Shown piece after piece: positions 4,101 to 41,475 of a stretch of 64,000 bases of DNA. Below the pieces are notes generated by a model. That model had not been told where the DNA came from. It searched no databases and saw nothing but the letters and a program-made list of their open reading frames with translations. A program made the translations under genes and the position numbers. Source of the DNA: Candidatus Gastranaerophilales bacterium (GTDB lineage Bacteria; Cyanobacteriota; Vampirovibrionia; Gastranaerophilales; Gastranaerophilaceae). How positions within the stretch are numbered: position 1 is the stretch's first letter; every line of letters begins with the position of its first letter. The stretch lies in the NCBI GenBank assembly GCA_944322755.1, contig CALUPY010000001.1:124001-188000 (forward strand), given 5' to 3'.

Positions 4101-5660
4101 TTACCAGGAAACAATAATACCGCCCGAGGCACCATTGCCGCCCTCGCCATAGGTCGTATTTTGTTTTATGTATTCCTGATTTGTTTCTTTGTTTTGTTCA
4201 ACTTGTTCTTTTGACAGATTGATTGCAGCCCCGCCGCCGCCGCCGCCGGAACCGAGTCCAACGCCTTCAGCACCGTTGCCGGCTTTTTTACCATAACCGC
4301 CGCGTCCGCCTGCGCCACCGACAGAGTCACCGATATAAGTAGTGGTCGCACTTTCACCCTGACCTCCTTCACCGGCATTATCGCCGACAGCAGGAGATGT
4401 TGTAGCAGAACAGCCGGTACCGCCCTTTGCTGTGACTTGGTTAAAGATAGTGACCTGACCGTCCTGTCCGGAAAGTCCGCCTTTGCCAACCTGGAAATTG
4501 TTAGCATATTCTTTCTGGCGAGCCATGAGAATAGAGTTTACGGATCCTGCTCCGCCGCCGCAACCGCCTCTGAGGTCAACTGTAGTTTCTACGGCTTTTA
4601 CATATGAAGTGGAACCTCCTGACAAAATTTCAGAACCGTTGGGATATTTTTTAACCAGCATTTTATAATCACCTACATCTCTGGTATAGATAGGTGTAAA
4701 ACGCTGACAGTGAACATACTCGCAATTACTGTCAGAGTAGTTGCTTACATACATACCGCCTGCAGAACCTTCAATTTCTACAAGATCATCTATTCTGTCT
4801 TTTAAATATTCTTTTTCTTTTAAATAAACTCTGTCCCCGTTTGCACCGGGTTTAGAGACCATTTCTTTAAATATAAACCAGTCGAGAATTTCAACCTGAC
4901 CGCCTGGTTTGTAAATTTTTGCACCACCGTCAACTCGACCGCCCGGGCAAGTTTTTAGAGTATTCTCTATTTCAGTATCAGGTTTTGTTTCCAACCAGAG
5001 TTTGTCACCAGCCCTGTACTGTTTTTTATATCTAACACTGGCAATTGTGTTATTTGGTGGAGCACCGGGGAATTCGCAATCTGCAAAGTATGTTTTATGA
5101 CCTGCAGAATCCTGGGTATAAGCTCTAAAGAAATTATCCATGAGCTCGCCTTCCTGGCCTTTATTGCCTACGACATTAACTTCATATTCTGCAGTAGTCG
5201 GAATTTCAAGGGCGTTGCTAGGAATACCCATTTCATATTCTTTGTCAGCTTCTGTTGAAATAGGAATATTAAATGTATCCTCAGGTTTTATAAATTCAAG
5301 ATAAGGTAGACCTTCATCAAAGTTTCCGCCAGCACCACCGCCTATAACCTGAATCAGCATATAAGGAACATTAGTAGGAAGCACAGGAAATGTACAACCC
5401 TTTTTCCACTTATCAGGATTTGAAGGAAGTGATGAATTCTGATCAGCTGCAGTTGCTGAACGAAGCTCGTTATTTATATACTTACAAGCCCACTTTCCAT
5501 GCGGACCTCTTGTCGGTAAGACAAGATGCTTTTTCGTAATAACAGGCATTGTCGCAGCAAGGATGAGAGCTGCAATCAAGAGCGCTATCATTGCCTCTGC
5601 AAGTGAAAAAGCATTTTCCAGTTTAGATTTTTTATGTATTATCTTTTTCATATTTACCAT
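4101..5660 (-). CDS. Prepilin-like protein with glycine-rich ectodomain (third of three paralogs)
   Basis: About 519 residues. After a short basic leader comes a type III-signal-like motif, NA-FSLAEAM, with the glutamate at position 5 of the mature chain and a hydrophobic helix, as in type IV pilins and pseudopilins. The cleavage position -1 is Ala rather than Gly. The block HGKWACKYIN and a GCTFP motif are shared with the 7258-9168 paralog. The rest is rich in glycine, with GGCGGGAG and GSGGGGGGAA, and ends GGNGASGGIIVSW, like glycine-rich tail-fibre-type domains. An AGGA site (5671-5674) allows GTG 5666, ATG 5660 or ATG 5651 as start. It lies 28 nt after the second paralog, in one operon. 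Confidence 0.8.
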   Translation of the reverse strand: MVNMKKIIHKKSKLENAFSLAEAMIALLIAALILAATMPVITKKHLVLPTRGPHGKWACKYINNELRSATAADQNSSLPSNPDKWKKGCTFPVLPTNVPYMLIQVIGGGAGGNFDEGLPYLEFIKPEDTFNIPISTEADKEYEMGIPSNALEIPTTAEYEVNVVGNKGQEGELMDNFFRAYTQDSAGHKTYFADCEFPGAPPNNTIASVRYKKQYRAGDKLWLETKPDTEIENTLKTCPGGRVDGGAKIYKPGGQVEILDWFIFKEMVSKPGANGDRVYLKEKEYLKDRIDDLVEIEGSAGGMYVSNYSDSNCEYVHCQRFTPIYTRDVGDYKMLVKKYPNGSEILSGGSTSYVKAVETTVDLRGGCGGGAGSVNSILMARQKEYANNFQVGKGGLSGQDGQVTIFNQVTAKGGTGCSATTSPAVGDNAGEGGQGESATTTYIGDSVGGAGGRGGYGKKAGNGAEGVGLGSGGGGGGAAINLSKEQVEQNKETNQEYIKQNTTYGEGGNGASGGIIVSW

Positions 5661-7257: not shown

Positions 7258-9168
<1,911 letters not shown>

Positions 9169-34665: not shown

Positions 34666-34938
34666 CTAAAATAAATCGCTGTGAGAACCTGTACTGACTA
34701 ATGTCAAAATAAGAATATCGCTTTCTATTTTGTAAATCAAAAGCCAGTCAGGTTCAATGTGACATTCTCGGTATTTGCAATAATTTCCCGTCAGATTATG
34801 ATCTTTATATTTTGGAGGTAAATCTTTACCTGCTGCCAGCAACTCAACTACTGTTTGCAGTTTTGACAAATCCTTCCCTCTTTTTTTCATAAGTTTTACA
34901 GAGCGTTTCATTTGTGTTGAATACACAATAGAGTACAT
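34666..34938 (-). CDS. yafQ: YafQ-family toxin (RelE superfamily mRNA interferase)
   Basis: A 90-residue ribosome-dependent mRNA endonuclease of the RelE/ParE fold. The catalytic set known from E. coli YafQ is all visible: the His of KDHNLTG, the His-x3-Asp-Trp of CHIEPDW, and the His and final Phe of GSHSDLF at the C-terminus. So it looks active. It follows its antitoxin by 3 nt in one transcript. Confidence 0.93.
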   Translation of the reverse strand: MYSIVYSTQMKRSVKLMKKRGKDLSKLQTVVELLAAGKDLPPKYKDHNLTGNYCKYRECHIEPDWLLIYKIESDILILTLVSTGSHSDLF

Positions 34939-34941
34939 TGT

Positions 34942-35211
34942 TTAGTCCTCTAACATAGATTTTATTGCATCTTCTGCATTATTAAATTTGGGAGATAAAC
35001 CGATACCTTTTTCTACATCTTCTATTGCCTTGATTGTTTCTGTGTTGGGTGTATGCATAGAAATTTCAAAAGGAATCCTTTGTTCTCTGACAACCGTTTT
35101 TACAAACATATTAATAGCTGTAGACATTGTCAGCCCAAATTCTTCACATAAACTATCAAATTTTTGTTTAAGTTTATCATCTATTCTAATACTTATATTC
35201 GATTGAGTCAT
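34942..35211 (-). CDS. dinJ: RelB/DinJ-family antitoxin
   Basis: An 89-residue antitoxin. The N-terminal ribbon-helix-helix (NISIRIDDKLKQKFDSLCEE, then GLTMSTAINMFVKTVV) binds DNA, and the C-terminal half wraps the YafQ toxin. An AAAGG site precedes the ATG. A perfect 23-bp palindrome overlaps the promoter just upstream, as expected for autoregulation by the antitoxin or the toxin-antitoxin complex. Confidence 0.93.
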   Translation of the reverse strand: MTQSNISIRIDDKLKQKFDSLCEEFGLTMSTAINMFVKTVVREQRIPFEISMHTPNTETIKAIEDVEKGIGLSPKFNNAEDAIKSMLED

Positions 35212-35447: not shown

Positions 35448-35452
35448 AAAAT

Positions 35453-35538
35453 TGCCGATGGCCGGAGTCGAACCGGCACGTGGCGCAAACCACACAAGAT
35501 TTTGAGTCTAGCACGTCTACCAATTTCATCACATCGGC
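35453..35538 (-). tRNA. tRNA-Leu (anticodon CAA)
   Basis: An 86-nt class II cloverleaf. Acceptor strands GCCGATG (5', 35538-35532) and CATCGGC (35460-35454) pair over 7 bp. The D-loop has AATTGGTAGAC, the anticodon loop is ACTCAAAATCT with CAA, a long variable arm follows, and the T-arm is GCCGG-TTCGACT-CCGGC. Discriminator base is A; the CCA end is not encoded. TATAAT ends about 4 nt before the 5' end, so the transcript may begin at or near the mature end. Confidence 0.93.
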
Positions 35539-35837
35539 ATTTATTATATTCTATTTTCACTTTTTGCTTCTGTGATGAAATCGGTAGACTCTAATCTGTA
35601 TTTTCTCCGCTTCGCTACGGTCAGTCATCACATCGGCATTTATTATATTCTATTTTCACTTTTTGCTTCTGTGATGAAATCGGTAGACTCTAATCTGTAT
35701 TTTCTCCGCTTCGCTACGGTCAGTCATCACATCGGCATTTATTATATTCTATTTTCACTTTTTGCTTCTGTGATGAAATCGGTAGACTTTAATCTGTATT
35801 TTCTCCGCTTCGCTACGGTCAGTCATCACATCGGCAT
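35526..35837. repeat. 99-bp tandem repeat, three copies, built from tRNA-Leu 5' end and promoter
   Basis: The string TCATCACATCGGCA recurs at 35526, 35625, 35724 and 35823, exactly 99 bp apart, with almost identical DNA between. Each unit contains the tRNA promoter box (TATAAT, read on minus), the first ~13 nt of tRNA-Leu, a divergent GC-rich stretch (cgcttcgctacgg on plus) and an inverted copy of the tRNA D-arm start (GTGATGAAATCGGTAGAC on plus). The period is a multiple of 3, so a false 93-codon repeat ORF appears on the plus strand. Confidence 0.9.
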
Positions 35838-35886: not shown

Positions 35887-37287
35887 TTAAAATCTGAAAT
35901 AAATAAACGGATTATATGTAGATGCTGCTATTGTTGCCGAAGAAAGGATGAACAGAAAAAGCAGCCATAAATTTACAAGTCCGTACAAAATTTTATTCTC
36001 GCGTTTCACATTCAATATATTTCTAAATACCGGTATTGAACAAATCAAAGCCGCAAAAATCATAATAACCTCATACGAATCAACATAATAAGGCAATGAA
36101 TAAGCAATATCATGGACTTTTGCCAATCCGAACATATTTTTAATATATTCAAACGCATAACCCATATCATCAGACCTGAAAACAACCCAGCCAAGCACAA
36201 AAACAAATATTGTATACAAATGTTTTATAAAGTTTACTGGTTTTGATACAGTTTCTTTTGCCCAACCGGTAACCTTTTCAAAGATAATGAATAAACCATT
36301 CCATACCCCCCAGATTACAAAAGTCCAGCTTGCACCGTGCCACAGACCGGTCAATAGGAACACAATCCCCAGATTTAAACATGTCCGTTTCAGACCGTTT
36401 CTATTGCCGCCAAGCGGAATGTACAAATATTCCTTAAACCATGTAGACAGTGATATGTGCCATCTGCGCCAAAATTCCGTGATTGACTTTGATATATAAG
36501 GATAATTGAAGTTCTCCATAAACTTAAACCCGAAGATAAATCCGAGTCCGATAGCCATATCCGAATATCCGGAAAAATCAAAATATAACTGGAATGAATA
36601 AGACACAGCACCAAGCCACGCAACTAACGGCGAAAACGTATCGGGTGACTGGATAAAAATCTTATCGGCGATTGCTCCTAGAGTATTTGCAATAAGCATC
36701 TTTTTAGACAACCCGATTATAAATCGTTTCACGCCATACTGAACCTTTTCAAAATTCACTTCTCTGTCATCGATTTGTTCGGCTATATCGTGATATTTCA
36801 CGATAGGACCCGCTATCAACTGAGGGAACAGGCAGATATATAGAGTAAGTTTATAAAAATTCTTTTGCGCTTTACAGTCTCCTCTGTAAACATCTATCAA
36901 ATACGACATTGCCTGAAATGTGTAAAAGGATATCCCCAAAGGCAATATTACCTCAATGAATTTTATGTCCATTGAGAAAATATGATTTATGTTCTCCAGC
37001 ACAAAATTGAAGTATTTGAAATATGCAAGAAATCCCAAATCGGTTAAAACCGTCAATATGAGTGCAAGCTTCTTGTGATTTTCAAATTTTTCAATCGCAA
37101 GTGCACCTGCATAATTTACTATTATGGTTAAAAGCATTATAGCAAGATACTTTGGCTCGCCCCAGGCATAAAATAGTATACTTGCCACAAGCAGTATCGG
37201 GTTGTGCAGCTCTTTTTTTGTACAAAGATATAACACGCACAATATCGGTAAAAATAGAAATACAAACGTCATCGAACTGAATAGCAT
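35887..37287 (-). CDS. MBOAT-family membrane O-acyltransferase (AlgI/DltB-like)
   Basis: A 466-residue polytopic inner-membrane enzyme that passes acyl groups across the membrane for O-acylation of an extracellular polymer. It has about ten hydrophobic helices, the DFSGYSDMAIGLG and FWRRWHISLSTWFKEYLYIPLGG segments and the catalytic His in LTGLWHGASWTFVIWG, all typical of AlgI/PatA-type MBOATs. Its ATG directly follows the stop of the DHHW gene, so translation is coupled. The acceptor (polysaccharide, pilin sugar or cell wall) is not known. Confidence 0.95.
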   Translation of the reverse strand: MLFSSMTFVFLFLPILCVLYLCTKKELHNPILLVASILFYAWGEPKYLAIMLLTIIVNYAGALAIEKFENHKKLALILTVLTDLGFLAYFKYFNFVLENINHIFSMDIKFIEVILPLGISFYTFQAMSYLIDVYRGDCKAQKNFYKLTLYICLFPQLIAGPIVKYHDIAEQIDDREVNFEKVQYGVKRFIIGLSKKMLIANTLGAIADKIFIQSPDTFSPLVAWLGAVSYSFQLYFDFSGYSDMAIGLGFIFGFKFMENFNYPYISKSITEFWRRWHISLSTWFKEYLYIPLGGNRNGLKRTCLNLGIVFLLTGLWHGASWTFVIWGVWNGLFIIFEKVTGWAKETVSKPVNFIKHLYTIFVFVLGWVVFRSDDMGYAFEYIKNMFGLAKVHDIAYSLPYYVDSYEVIMIFAALICSIPVFRNILNVKRENKILYGLVNLWLLFLFILSSATIAASTYNPFIYFRF

Positions 37288-39041
37288 TTAATTCTCGCTT
37301 TCGTACATATTTTTCAATGGAATAATATAAGCACTGGAAACAGTTAAAATTAGTATATCCGGTTTCATTTTCAGTATTTCATTTTCATATCCAGACATTT
37401 TTATTTCATCTACGAATTTTCTTTTTGAATTATTTGCCCTTAAATATCGAAGATGTTTAAAACTGTACGGCAAAAAACTATTGAAATTTTCTGACTGGCT
37501 ATTGCCTATTTCCAATGCTGTTAAATTATTTTTCGCCGGGAAATGAAAATCTTTTATCTTATTATCATAATCAATGTCTGTCTTCAAACTCTTATGTTTT
37601 TTATGTATGTAATACGGATATTCAACATCCAGAACTTTTTCTGCTATTTTTTTATCATCAAGATTTAAAAATGCATACAATGTCTGTCCTGTAGTATATT
37701 CTCTTGTAAAATCACTTAACACCAGCTTATTTTTTGAGATATCAAAATCCTTTTTCGTCTCAGGCAGAAACTGGGGAAAGTCTTTTTTTATTTCATTAGC
37801 TAATAACGTATATCCTGTGAATGCTCCATAATGTGTCCAATGATGGTCTGTTTTGAAAAAAACAAAATTAGTCTTTCCTAAAGATTTAAATTGTTCAGCC
37901 GGAAACACAATTTTTAAATCTGTATTCTTCTTTGCATATTCATATATTTTATTAAAATTTTCATTTTTCCCTGCTGGTTTATAAATATTTTGTTCCTTGT
38001 AAATGTCCTCTTTTGCCGGAACAACTACAAGATAAAATTTTATATTGTGGGAATTGCAAAAATCATTCAGTCTGGTCAAATTTGAAACAATACGTTTTAC
38101 AGTCTCATCAGATAAATCGTCATATACTGCTAATGAATACGGCTCAATTCTGAATCCCCAGTTTGTACTTTTATTCAAAATAGCATGTCCGGGTAAAACA
38201 TAATTTTTGTATGCTATAAAATATTTGAACCTGTCATAATATTTAATAATTTCATCCCTTAAATAAAAATGATCTGAAAAATAGTTATTATAATTATTAC
38301 CCCAGTCATAATTTATTTTATTATCCGTAATGAACGGCTGATATTTCGCCAATGTACGGAGTTCTTTTTCTGAAAACACTTTCGTATCAAGTTTTACCAT
38401 CGGCACAAATAGAAGAATAAAGAATATTAAAAGAAAAATTATATCTGTTCTTGATTGATTTTTAAGTGTCTTAAAATCTGCAAGGTAGTCTGTGAGTTTA
38501 TAAAACAGAAGAAACGAAAGAACCGTAATTATTACAAATAACTTAAAATCAAATTTTATAGAAGAACGAACCTTTAGCGGTTTGTTATAAACTATCGAAA
38601 AATTTTCTGACTTAGGTGTTATAACAAGAGAATCACCATTAATTTTTATATCTGCATTTTCAGCTGAAAAATTTTCAAGGTCATTGAGCTTATACTTTCC
38701 GTCTCTAAGCTCTAACCCTGTTATAGCAAGGCTTCCAGCCCCCCCCCCCCCGATAGGTCAAAAGGCTTACGCAGAGCGAGTTTCAGGCGTTTTGGAGAGG
38801 TCACATGAGAAAAAGTTACATAAAATTTTGATGATTTTGACAAATCAATATCATACCCACCTCTTTTGACTTTTTTAAACTCAGCATTATTTTTCTTATT
38901 CAAAAGAACTTCTATACTCGCAACACCATCACCTTTAATATAAAATTGGACGCTGAATGGCTTAAAAATGAGCCAGTACCTATTTGCTGCAGCTACACAC
39001 AGAATCGTCAAAACCAGTGCTATTATTGTTCTTTTTCTCAT
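37288..39041 (-). CDS. DHHW/AlgX-like acyl-transfer partner, split by a 13-G tract (phase-variable or frameshifted)
   Basis: Two frames make one gene. The upstream frame (from the ATG at 39041) gives a membrane anchor (IIALVLTILCVAAA) and a beta-rich ectodomain up to FDLS-GGGG, then runs out at a TAA (38721). In the next frame no stop occurs from the G tract (38739-38751) down to 37288, and no start exists before GTG 38406. It encodes the rest of the ectodomain, two membrane helices (KLFVIITVLSFLLFY; IIFLLIFFILLFV) and a periplasmic SGNH-like domain with KTDHHWTHYG, as in DHHW and AlgX/AlgJ proteins. With 11 or 14 G the product would be continuous (584 residues with 14). Here, with 13 G, it is off. 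Confidence 0.8.
38739..38751. repeat. Homopolymer of 13 C/G inside the DHHW gene
   Basis: Thirteen C on plus (13 G in the coding strand), extreme for DNA that is about two-thirds AT. It sits exactly where the two halves of the DHHW frame join, so slippage by +1 or -2 restores the full protein. Sequencing error in the run is the alternative. Confidence 0.9.
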
Positions 39042-39105: not shown

Positions 39106-41475
39106 TCATTCTTCAAAAATAGCTTTAAAGTAAATATCAGCACCCTGTGTATTATACATTGGCTGTCTTTTCCATAATTTAAAAGTAACACCTGCAGGCA
39201 GATCTGTTATACTAAATTCCAGTTTAGGCTGCATCGGAGAAGTATTATTACATCCGCCTTCCAATCTACAGCTGGAACCAACATGGATATAATCTAGCAA
39301 TTCATAAACATTTTCTGAGATATTATTTGATTTTGTAAAATACAAATTATATTTTTCATATACATAAGCATATTTATATCCGAAATCACGCGCATTTAAT
39401 CCAACAAATGCAAGCGGTACAATATATTCCGGCTGTTGTATATTTTTTAGCAGAGTGTTATCAGCTTTGTAAACAGCAATAATCATCTTGTGTTCTTTGT
39501 CATAATACATCGATTTTGGAATAAACTGCATAAGTTTATTTTTACAAAATGTAGTGTTTTTAGGATAGTGATATCCAAGGTGATTTATTACCCCGAGAAG
39601 CAAGGACGGATTGTTTATATAAATACTTCTTGCCGCAGGTCCGTCTGCTATGTCATGCCCAAAAGGACAAGCTGTATTGTTGAGACCATACCAAGGCTTT
39701 TTATCCTGTATTCCTCCGAATACTGCTTCACTCGGTTTATAAAATTTTGAAGCAAAGACAGATGAAGCGACATATTTTTTTCTTAAATCAAAAATCTCAT
39801 CTTTAGTCAGATTGTCATATTCAGAAGGCGGATTGATTTTTATTTTTTCAAGACTATCAAACAGTTTTTCACTACTTAGTGCTTTTTCTTTTTTTTGTTT
39901 TTCCGCTGCATTTTTGTCAATTGAAGCAATCAATTTTTCGACATTTGCAAGGTTTTTCGCATTATACTTAAACGTATTTTTTTTCAAACCTGCCGTTACA
40001 ATTTCTCTATATTTAAGAAAATCGTCAAGTGCTTCCTTTTTCTTTCCCAGCTTCAAATAGCACTTACCCCTGTTCAATCTTGCTGTGGCATAGCTGTCCG
40101 GAATAACGATTGTATCAAGTAGTTTTGTGTAATAAATAACAGCATTTTCGCAATCATCAAGTTTTCTGTATGCAATGGCTGCATTATATATTGCCTCTAT
40201 CTTTGCATCAAACTGGTCATCTGCATATTTTACATTTTTTGCGACAAGCGATTTTTTATTTGCCTCATTCAATTCAATCGATTTTAGCGCATATTTTAGA
40301 ACATTTGCATAATCACGTTTGTCCCTGTAAATATCTGAAATACTAAGAGAAATTAAATAATCCTCCTGATATACGGACTCTGCTTTTTTTAGAAAGTACA
40401 GCGTTTCGTCATTCATTTCGTTATATTTAAAATCCAAAGCTTGATTATAATACCCGATAAGAACCTTTTCCCTTGACTCATCCGGACTGAAATTCAAACT
40501 AAAATTTGTACAAATTGCATAGTAAACAAAAAAAGAAATTACTGCAGACATAAAAATAAATTTTTTATCTATAACTTTTTCCGGAAATATAAGGCAAATA
40601 AGACCCCAAAGCAATAGAAAAATAATAAGCCACAGTAACGGAATAATATAAGTATAAGAAAATACTGTATCATTACTTCCCTTAAAATTGTTTAATTTAT
40701 ATGCAAAATGTTTTGCCATAAACGGCATAAAAAAATACAGCCCTGGGTCAATTGTATAAACGTTTCCATTGTCATTTACATCGATTTTTAATTGATAATG
40801 ACCGTAACGTCCGGCATGTTCATATTCAACTCTTACATCCTGAACATTATTTATATTGAACACACTGACATTCGGAGTTAAAAAAGCATATGAACGCAAT
40901 GCGCATTGGCCATCGCTTTTATTACAGTCACAACTCATTACCGAAAACATAACAATACTTGCAGCAATCAGAAGAATTGTGCTAACACCGACTGTAAAAA
41001 TTTCATTTTTACTCATCTTTGATTTTATGCCTAGATTTTCCAGTATCTGCGGCTCAAGATGTAAGAACAAATCCATCGCACCTGCATTTTTAAATACAAG
41101 CCGCTCTTCTTCTCCGCTGCTATTTTTTAAACACAAAGTATTCCCTCGGTATATTGCCTTTGTAATACAGTTGTACGGAAAAACTTTTGATACCGCATTA
41201 TTTTTAACAAAACAAACTGTTTGTGCTTCATCAGAAACCATTACACTATCATATTTGTTATAATTCAGTGAAATATATGCAAGTATAGAAACAGGCAGAA
41301 TATTTAGAATAATAATGACCGGAATTGCAAACAAATCAAGCTTATCGATAAAATACCGCATATGCAAATAACTAAAAATACAGATAAATGCAAAAATTAT
41401 AAACAATAAAATCCATAAAGGCAGTTTGTTTATCTTTTTCAATTCATAAACAATATAATCTGATTCATTTTCCAT
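39106..41475 (-). CDS. Large membrane protein with TPR region, unknown function
   Basis: 789 residues. Two N-terminal membrane helices (about 17-65), a soluble PH-like stretch, a third helix (about 160-185), an ectodomain with cysteines (CDCNKSDGQC), and helices at about 275-300 and 310-328. Next come TPR-like repeats (about 345-480; IYNAAIAYRKLDDCENAVIYY, ARLNRGKCYLKLGKKKEAL), then a C-terminal domain of ~280 residues with several Cys. I do not recognise the whole. It is first in the unit with the DHHW and MBOAT genes, so it probably serves the same surface modification. The start matches the leaderless layout. Confidence 0.75.
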   Translation of the reverse strand: MENESDYIVYELKKINKLPLWILLFIIFAFICIFSYLHMRYFIDKLDLFAIPVIIILNILPVSILAYISLNYNKYDSVMVSDEAQTVCFVKNNAVSKVFPYNCITKAIYRGNTLCLKNSSGEEERLVFKNAGAMDLFLHLEPQILENLGIKSKMSKNEIFTVGVSTILLIAASIVMFSVMSCDCNKSDGQCALRSYAFLTPNVSVFNINNVQDVRVEYEHAGRYGHYQLKIDVNDNGNVYTIDPGLYFFMPFMAKHFAYKLNNFKGSNDTVFSYTYIIPLLWLIIFLLLWGLICLIFPEKVIDKKFIFMSAVISFFVYYAICTNFSLNFSPDESREKVLIGYYNQALDFKYNEMNDETLYFLKKAESVYQEDYLISLSISDIYRDKRDYANVLKYALKSIELNEANKKSLVAKNVKYADDQFDAKIEAIYNAAIAYRKLDDCENAVIYYTKLLDTIVIPDSYATARLNRGKCYLKLGKKKEALDDFLKYREIVTAGLKKNTFKYNAKNLANVEKLIASIDKNAAEKQKKEKALSSEKLFDSLEKIKINPPSEYDNLTKDEIFDLRKKYVASSVFASKFYKPSEAVFGGIQDKKPWYGLNNTACPFGHDIADGPAARSIYINNPSLLLGVINHLGYHYPKNTTFCKNKLMQFIPKSMYYDKEHKMIIAVYKADNTLLKNIQQPEYIVPLAFVGLNARDFGYKYAYVYEKYNLYFTKSNNISENVYELLDYIHVGSSCRLEGGCNNTSPMQPKLEFSITDLPAGVTFKLWKRQPMYNTQGADIYFKAIFEE

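Follow-up and report, generated by a model that had tools for sequence, protein, structure and literature searches.

Introduction

Homopolymer phase variation is best known in mucosal pathogens, among them Campylobacter, Neisseria and Helicobacter, and poly-G runs are also present in the polymorphic membrane proteins of chlamydiae. PatA/PatB, AlgI/AlgJ/AlgX and DltB/DltD are two-component O-acylation systems in which an MBOAT protein is paired with an SGNH/DHHW partner. Genomes of Campylobacter jejuni carry 18-39 phase-variable genes each, with 81 in one isolate, and their tract lengths are spread, 52% being G9 and 30% G10 (PMC6321876). Enzymes that modify flagellin form the largest phase-variable groups in this species (PMC6321876), whose reviews describe runs in such enzymes and not in the flagellin genes (PMC8355987). 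Our open-access literature search found nothing linking Gastranaerophilales with phase variation, and the paper on Melainabacteria flagellin diversity found by it mentions flagella but not homopolymers.

The locus described here combines both themes. We consider it very probable that a G13 tract is a phase-variation (contingency) switch, operated by slipped-strand mispairing, in a PatB/AlgJ-type DHHW O-acyltransferase paired with an MBOAT protein.

The tract and the split gene

The window, which is the whole stretch of 64,000 nucleotides analysed, sits on contig C1 of a 2.19-Mb host genome (G000). Its relevant features are:

35887..37287, minus strand: MBOAT O-acyltransferase, DltB/PatA/AlgI-like (PF03062, 1.4e-36)
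37288..38406, minus strand: DHHW/AlgX SGNH-hydrolase-like region with DHHW and GNS motifs (Pfam and motif reading)
37288..38757, minus strand: downstream open frame of 489 codons through the tract, with the rest of the N-terminal domain, transmembrane (TM) segments and the DHHW/SGNH (AlgX/PatB-like) domain
38721..39041, minus strand: upstream half of the split gene, with one TM helix and the first part of an extracytoplasmic domain (frame analysis)
38739..38751, minus strand: G13 homopolymer, the proposed slippage switch (read directly; out of frame as assembled)
39106..41475, minus strand: membrane TPR protein upstream of the split gene and on the same strand, syntenic in G003

The plus strand reads 13 C at positions 38739-38751, hence G13 on the coding strand. 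A first-pass annotation of this DNA had described a DHHW gene split at the tract, and frame analysis with direct reading of the ORFs establishes that the two frames meet there. The upstream ORF starts at 39041 and encodes 106 residues, terminating six codons past the tract with the C-terminal end LSGGGGLEALL; this half alone has no match in a Pfam search. Runs of 11 or 14 G join the frames into a continuous protein of 583 or 584 residues, respectively, exactly as had been claimed. The downstream frame was also correctly described as open without an early start, its earliest ATG, GTG or TTG codon being the GTG at 38406; this codon had been placed in the middle of a membrane helix, but is found at the end of the hydrophobic segment FLLIFFILLFVPM.

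The surrounding DNA does avoid G runs: the 64-kb window has no second G/C run longer than 6, the other C runs reaching at most 6 and every G run at most 5. Geometric extrapolation from the way shorter runs fall off puts the expected number of runs of at least 13 at about 1e-6 per window, so that the criterion of an intragenic homopolymer long enough to slip and far beyond chance is met. Across 60 order-3 Markov replicas of the window, runs reach at most 8.

Other repeats of the window are CCG trinucleotide repeats at 4231-4248 and 8420-8493, where a length change would preserve the frame, and a 99-bp tandem repeat (35526-35837, 3.2 copies, 99% match) that abuts and overlaps a tRNA-Leu(CAA) gene (35452-35539). 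A RelB antitoxin/YafQ toxin pair (34666-35211) lies beside this tRNA gene and the 99-bp repeat. A promoter/terminator scan was uninformative, with 35 promoter-like sites versus 30.5 expected.

The DHHW protein and its MBOAT partner

The downstream half is matched by the Pfam families ALGX (PF16822, 2.2e-12) and DHHW (PF14286, 4e-8), and among PDB profiles by Bacillus cereus PatB1 (3.7e-17) as well as AlgJ and AlgX, which satisfies profile membership for a PatB/AlgJ/AlgX-like SGNH O-acyltransferase. TDHHW and IGNS, which we take to be catalytic from knowledge of the family, are intact and fulfil the D-x-H and GxS motif criterion. The gene also has the adjacent MBOAT partner required of such an enzyme: its stop directly abuts the MBOAT start (TAAATG), and the MBOAT-DHHW synteny is observed at every homologous locus examined. 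The MBOAT protein scores under the cut-off of the NCBIfam DltB model. The TPR protein encoded upstream possibly shares an operon with the split gene.

Within the genus, MBOAT proteins are 94-95% identical and their DHHW partners 77-84%, a gap that would fit an acyl-donor module that stays constant and an acceptor module that varies and can be switched. Two to four DHHW genes form a tandem array in G085 (contig C88), G395 (C3), G072 (C1) and G482 (C26), the array of G072 adjoining a single MBOAT gene; these arrays suggest a repertoire of partners.

Homologous sites and selection

Two other Candidatus Gastranaerophilales MAGs of the same genus as the window also carry a run at the codon of the window's tract: G12 in G001 and C10 on the coding strand in G003, where Pro is encoded instead of Gly; in G002 the DHHW gene is absent. 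The frames join only at a run length of n = 2 mod 3, and the three runs (G13, G12 and C10) are all out of frame, so that no intact copy is known within the genus, a point against the switch. In G017, which belongs to another genus, a G13 run is in frame in a protein of 581 residues. The relatives thus do not carry the uniform 14 or 11 G that, according to the first-pass annotation, would have reduced the split to an assembly error in a constant gene. Such an error could be invoked since short reads are error-prone on long G runs, and one homologue (L108) does have a G17 near a contig end. It is contradicted by independent assemblies of different species, which differ at the same codon in the length and even the base of the run, and we give it hardly any credence.

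Runs of 13, 12 and 10 that all need n = 2 mod 3 also imply that the missing shift is not common to the three congeners, and one fixed frameshift would therefore not rescue them. This bears on programmed recoding, which supposes a tract permanently out of frame and a full protein made through ribosomal frameshifting or RNA-polymerase slippage. At the same site, other genera are in frame, and C runs are used as well as G runs, neither of which fits recoding.

By profile search, 110 of the 383 family genomes have a DHHW homologue. Fifty-one homologous loci were read in detail, with frames tallied by eye from the translations. In 30 of them the N-terminal domain contains a G/C run of 7 or more, which is in frame in 18, out of frame in 11 and, at a contig end, undetermined in 1; homologues without the run also lack the Gly/Pro insert. 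The runs, made of either G or C, lie in one favoured loop and several others; what is conserved is slipperiness rather than sequence. Frame analysis, together with the presence of both states among homologues, meets the criterion that a change in run length toggles between the full protein and an early stop. G140 and G409 share nearly the same loop, with an intact C10 in the first and C6-AT-CC in the second (ACCCCCCCCCCG versus ACCCCCCATCCG); going by the sequences alone, this pair represents a slippery and a locked allele.

Values of dN/dS among the three congeners are 0.10-0.27 for the upstream half and 0.09-0.17 for the downstream half. On this estimate both halves are under purifying selection despite the out-of-frame state of all three genes of this genus (g1), and the criterion of a run kept as a run while the gene diverges under such selection is met. 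Recoding would accommodate purifying selection on both sides of a tract that is out of frame in all g1 copies. The same selection argues against a decaying pseudogene that suffered a chance frameshift at the homopolymer, for which one can cite the out-of-frame state of the gene in each of the three genomes of the genus that possess it and its absence from G002. Decay is further at odds with 489 downstream codons without another stop, with the intact DHHW and GNS motifs and with a run rebuilt across genera, in G or C, at different loops; we judge it very improbable.

Runs in flagellin genes of the host and its congeners

A pattern search of the host genome identifies five runs of at least 9, three of 13 bp and two of 9 bp. 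Those of 13 bp, the only ones of at least 10, all fall in surface genes: the DHHW gene, the flagellin gene L010 (C13, out of frame) and the flagellin gene L012 (G13, in frame), whose product has Flagellin_N, GLUG-repeat and Flagellin_C domains. No long open frame crosses the 9-bp runs (contigs C8 and C13) on either side, and they are probably non-coding. G001 has 14 runs of at least 10, every one of them in a surface gene: 12 in flagellin genes, one in the DHHW gene and one in a gene for an acyltransferase-like membrane protein. The three of G003 are in a flagellin gene, the same acyltransferase-like gene and the DHHW gene. The acyltransferase-like protein of both genomes was assigned by eye, without Pfam. 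This concentration of out-of-frame status in surface genes is a further point against assembly error.

The G001 flagellin paralogues are 90-94% identical over the 400 bp upstream and 93-97% over the 72 bp downstream of the run, and copies with such near-identical flanks differ in the run, which is G11 and in frame in some and G12 and out of frame in others; recoding does not explain this. These length differences are the closest available proxy for slippage, at the level of paralogues only. In the flagellin paralogues L046-L059 (G001) and L010/L012 (G000) the run lies just past the conserved N-terminal region and precedes GLUG-type insert domains; the segment right after it exists in at least two versions (identity over the downstream 72 bp of about 0.95 or 0.3).

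The flagellin tracts of the same genomes and the mixed frames of the DHHW homologues in other genera support the proposal of the first-pass annotation that the tract is a candidate phase-variable switch; variation at the level of reads remains inferred.

Runs across the family

Runs of at least 10 G are present in 117 of 146 Gastranaerophilaceae genomes, mostly MAGs and one per species, with a maximum of 176 in one genome (G235). Genomes of the outgroup family f8, which belongs to the same class and has larger genomes, mostly have 0-2. Run-length modes per genome are narrow and species-specific, and the runs of genus g7 are unusually uniform, almost all being 10 long (169 of 176 in G235). The lengths in G025 are bimodal, with one run of 6, none of 7-8 and 26 of 9-11 in 391 kb, a distribution that assembly error does not account for.

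Gene contexts, judged from open frames and Pfam, point in G025 to prepilins: 21 of 23 prepilin motifs have a run in the leader, 9-11 codons past the start. Nearly all of these runs need n = 2 mod 3, G11 being mostly in frame and G10 out, and prepilin-leader runs of G235 and G141 follow the same pattern. The prepilin-leader G10/G11 loci are L026-L045 (G025), L116-L120 (G235) and L126-L130 (G141). In these three genomes the leader runs are nearly all exactly 10 where n = 2 mod 3 is needed, a uniform one-base deficit that is what recoding would produce. Recoding, our main rival explanation, is thus partly compatible with the uniform G10 runs of the prepilins; it does not fit the data on DHHW genes or flagellins, and as an account of the tract it is unlikely.

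LicD, glycosyltransferase 2, GGDEF and PMP-repeat genes are also found at runs. About half of the sampled runs of genera g57 and g25 have no clear coding context, being intergenic or unclear, which limits generalisation to the family; the idea that every family run is a gene switch was rejected for these two genera. MutS1 is present in 146 of 146 family genomes, so that the long runs are not a by-product of MutS loss, which is ruled out as their cause (MutL was not included). Where the best MutS1 match of a genome falls under the curated cut-off, runs are usually few or absent (g22, g52), g27 and g3 being exceptions.

Proposed mechanism and significance

Phase variation at the G13 tract would operate as follows. 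Replication slippage on the DNA would alter the run length in the N-terminal domain of the DHHW gene. With 11 or 14 G the frames would join and the full protein be made (ON), while the 13 G of the assembly would lead to the stop six codons past the run and to a 106-residue fragment (OFF). The OFF state would probably also lower expression of the abutting MBOAT gene. The ON protein would pair with the adjacent MBOAT protein and O-acylate a surface polymer. Variation of the run length among cells of a population is inferred, as is the polar effect on the MBOAT gene. Surface-polymer acylation as the switched trait is inferred from homology to PatB/AlgJ and from the neighbouring MBOAT gene, the acceptor being unknown.

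The tract may be part of a lineage-wide contingency system of up to more than 100 runs of species-typical length in prepilin leaders, flagellins and surface-modifying enzymes, with each cell displaying a random subset of a very large pilin and flagellin repertoire; we see the chances of this broader hypothesis as evenly balanced. If true, no larger simple-repeat phasome would be known, and this one would lie outside the classical pathogens. It would show a commensal gut lineage using the strategy of mucosal pathogens, with many independent origins in one gene and a very high density in the genome. These uncultured gut relatives of Cyanobacteria would probably direct it against phages or host immunity. 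Many 'split' flagellins, pilins and acyltransferases would then be miscalled in published Gastranaerophilales annotations. The use of G and C at the same sites and the locked versus slippery alleles would provide a natural experiment on the origin of contingency loci, and existing long-read gut metagenomes can reveal the tract states.

Comparison with known systems

The mechanism is already known; within the open-access literature searched, the lineage, the targets and the scale appear new. As in the poly-G/C phasome of C. jejuni (cj1295, maf genes), intragenic runs of about 9-13 set the frame (PMC6321876, PMC8355987, PMC3068675). Both are A+T-rich gut bacteria with runs concentrated in surface-structure genes, the largest groups acting on flagella. 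Gastranaerophilaceae differ from C. jejuni in belonging to an unrelated phylum, that of non-photosynthetic relatives of Cyanobacteria, and in having runs in flagellin structural genes and prepilin leaders rather than in flagellin-modifying enzymes. Their genomes carry as many as 176 runs of at least 10 each, some of them not shown to be genic, versus the 18-39 genes of C. jejuni. The almost uniform runs of 10 in genus g7 are tighter in length than Campylobacter tracts (PMC6321876), which tells against the switch. A single observation, the G15 near the start of the PMP-repeat protein L152, recalls the chlamydial polymorphic membrane proteins.

Like PatA/PatB, AlgI/AlgJ/AlgX and DltB/DltD, the window has adjacent MBOAT and SGNH/DHHW genes, with profile matches to PatB1, AlgJ and AlgX. 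Unlike in these systems, whose acceptor has no identified counterpart here, the DHHW protein has an extra N-terminal TM segment and an extracytoplasmic domain that bears the run, and within the genus of the window it diverges far faster than its MBOAT partner (77-84% versus 94-95% identity).
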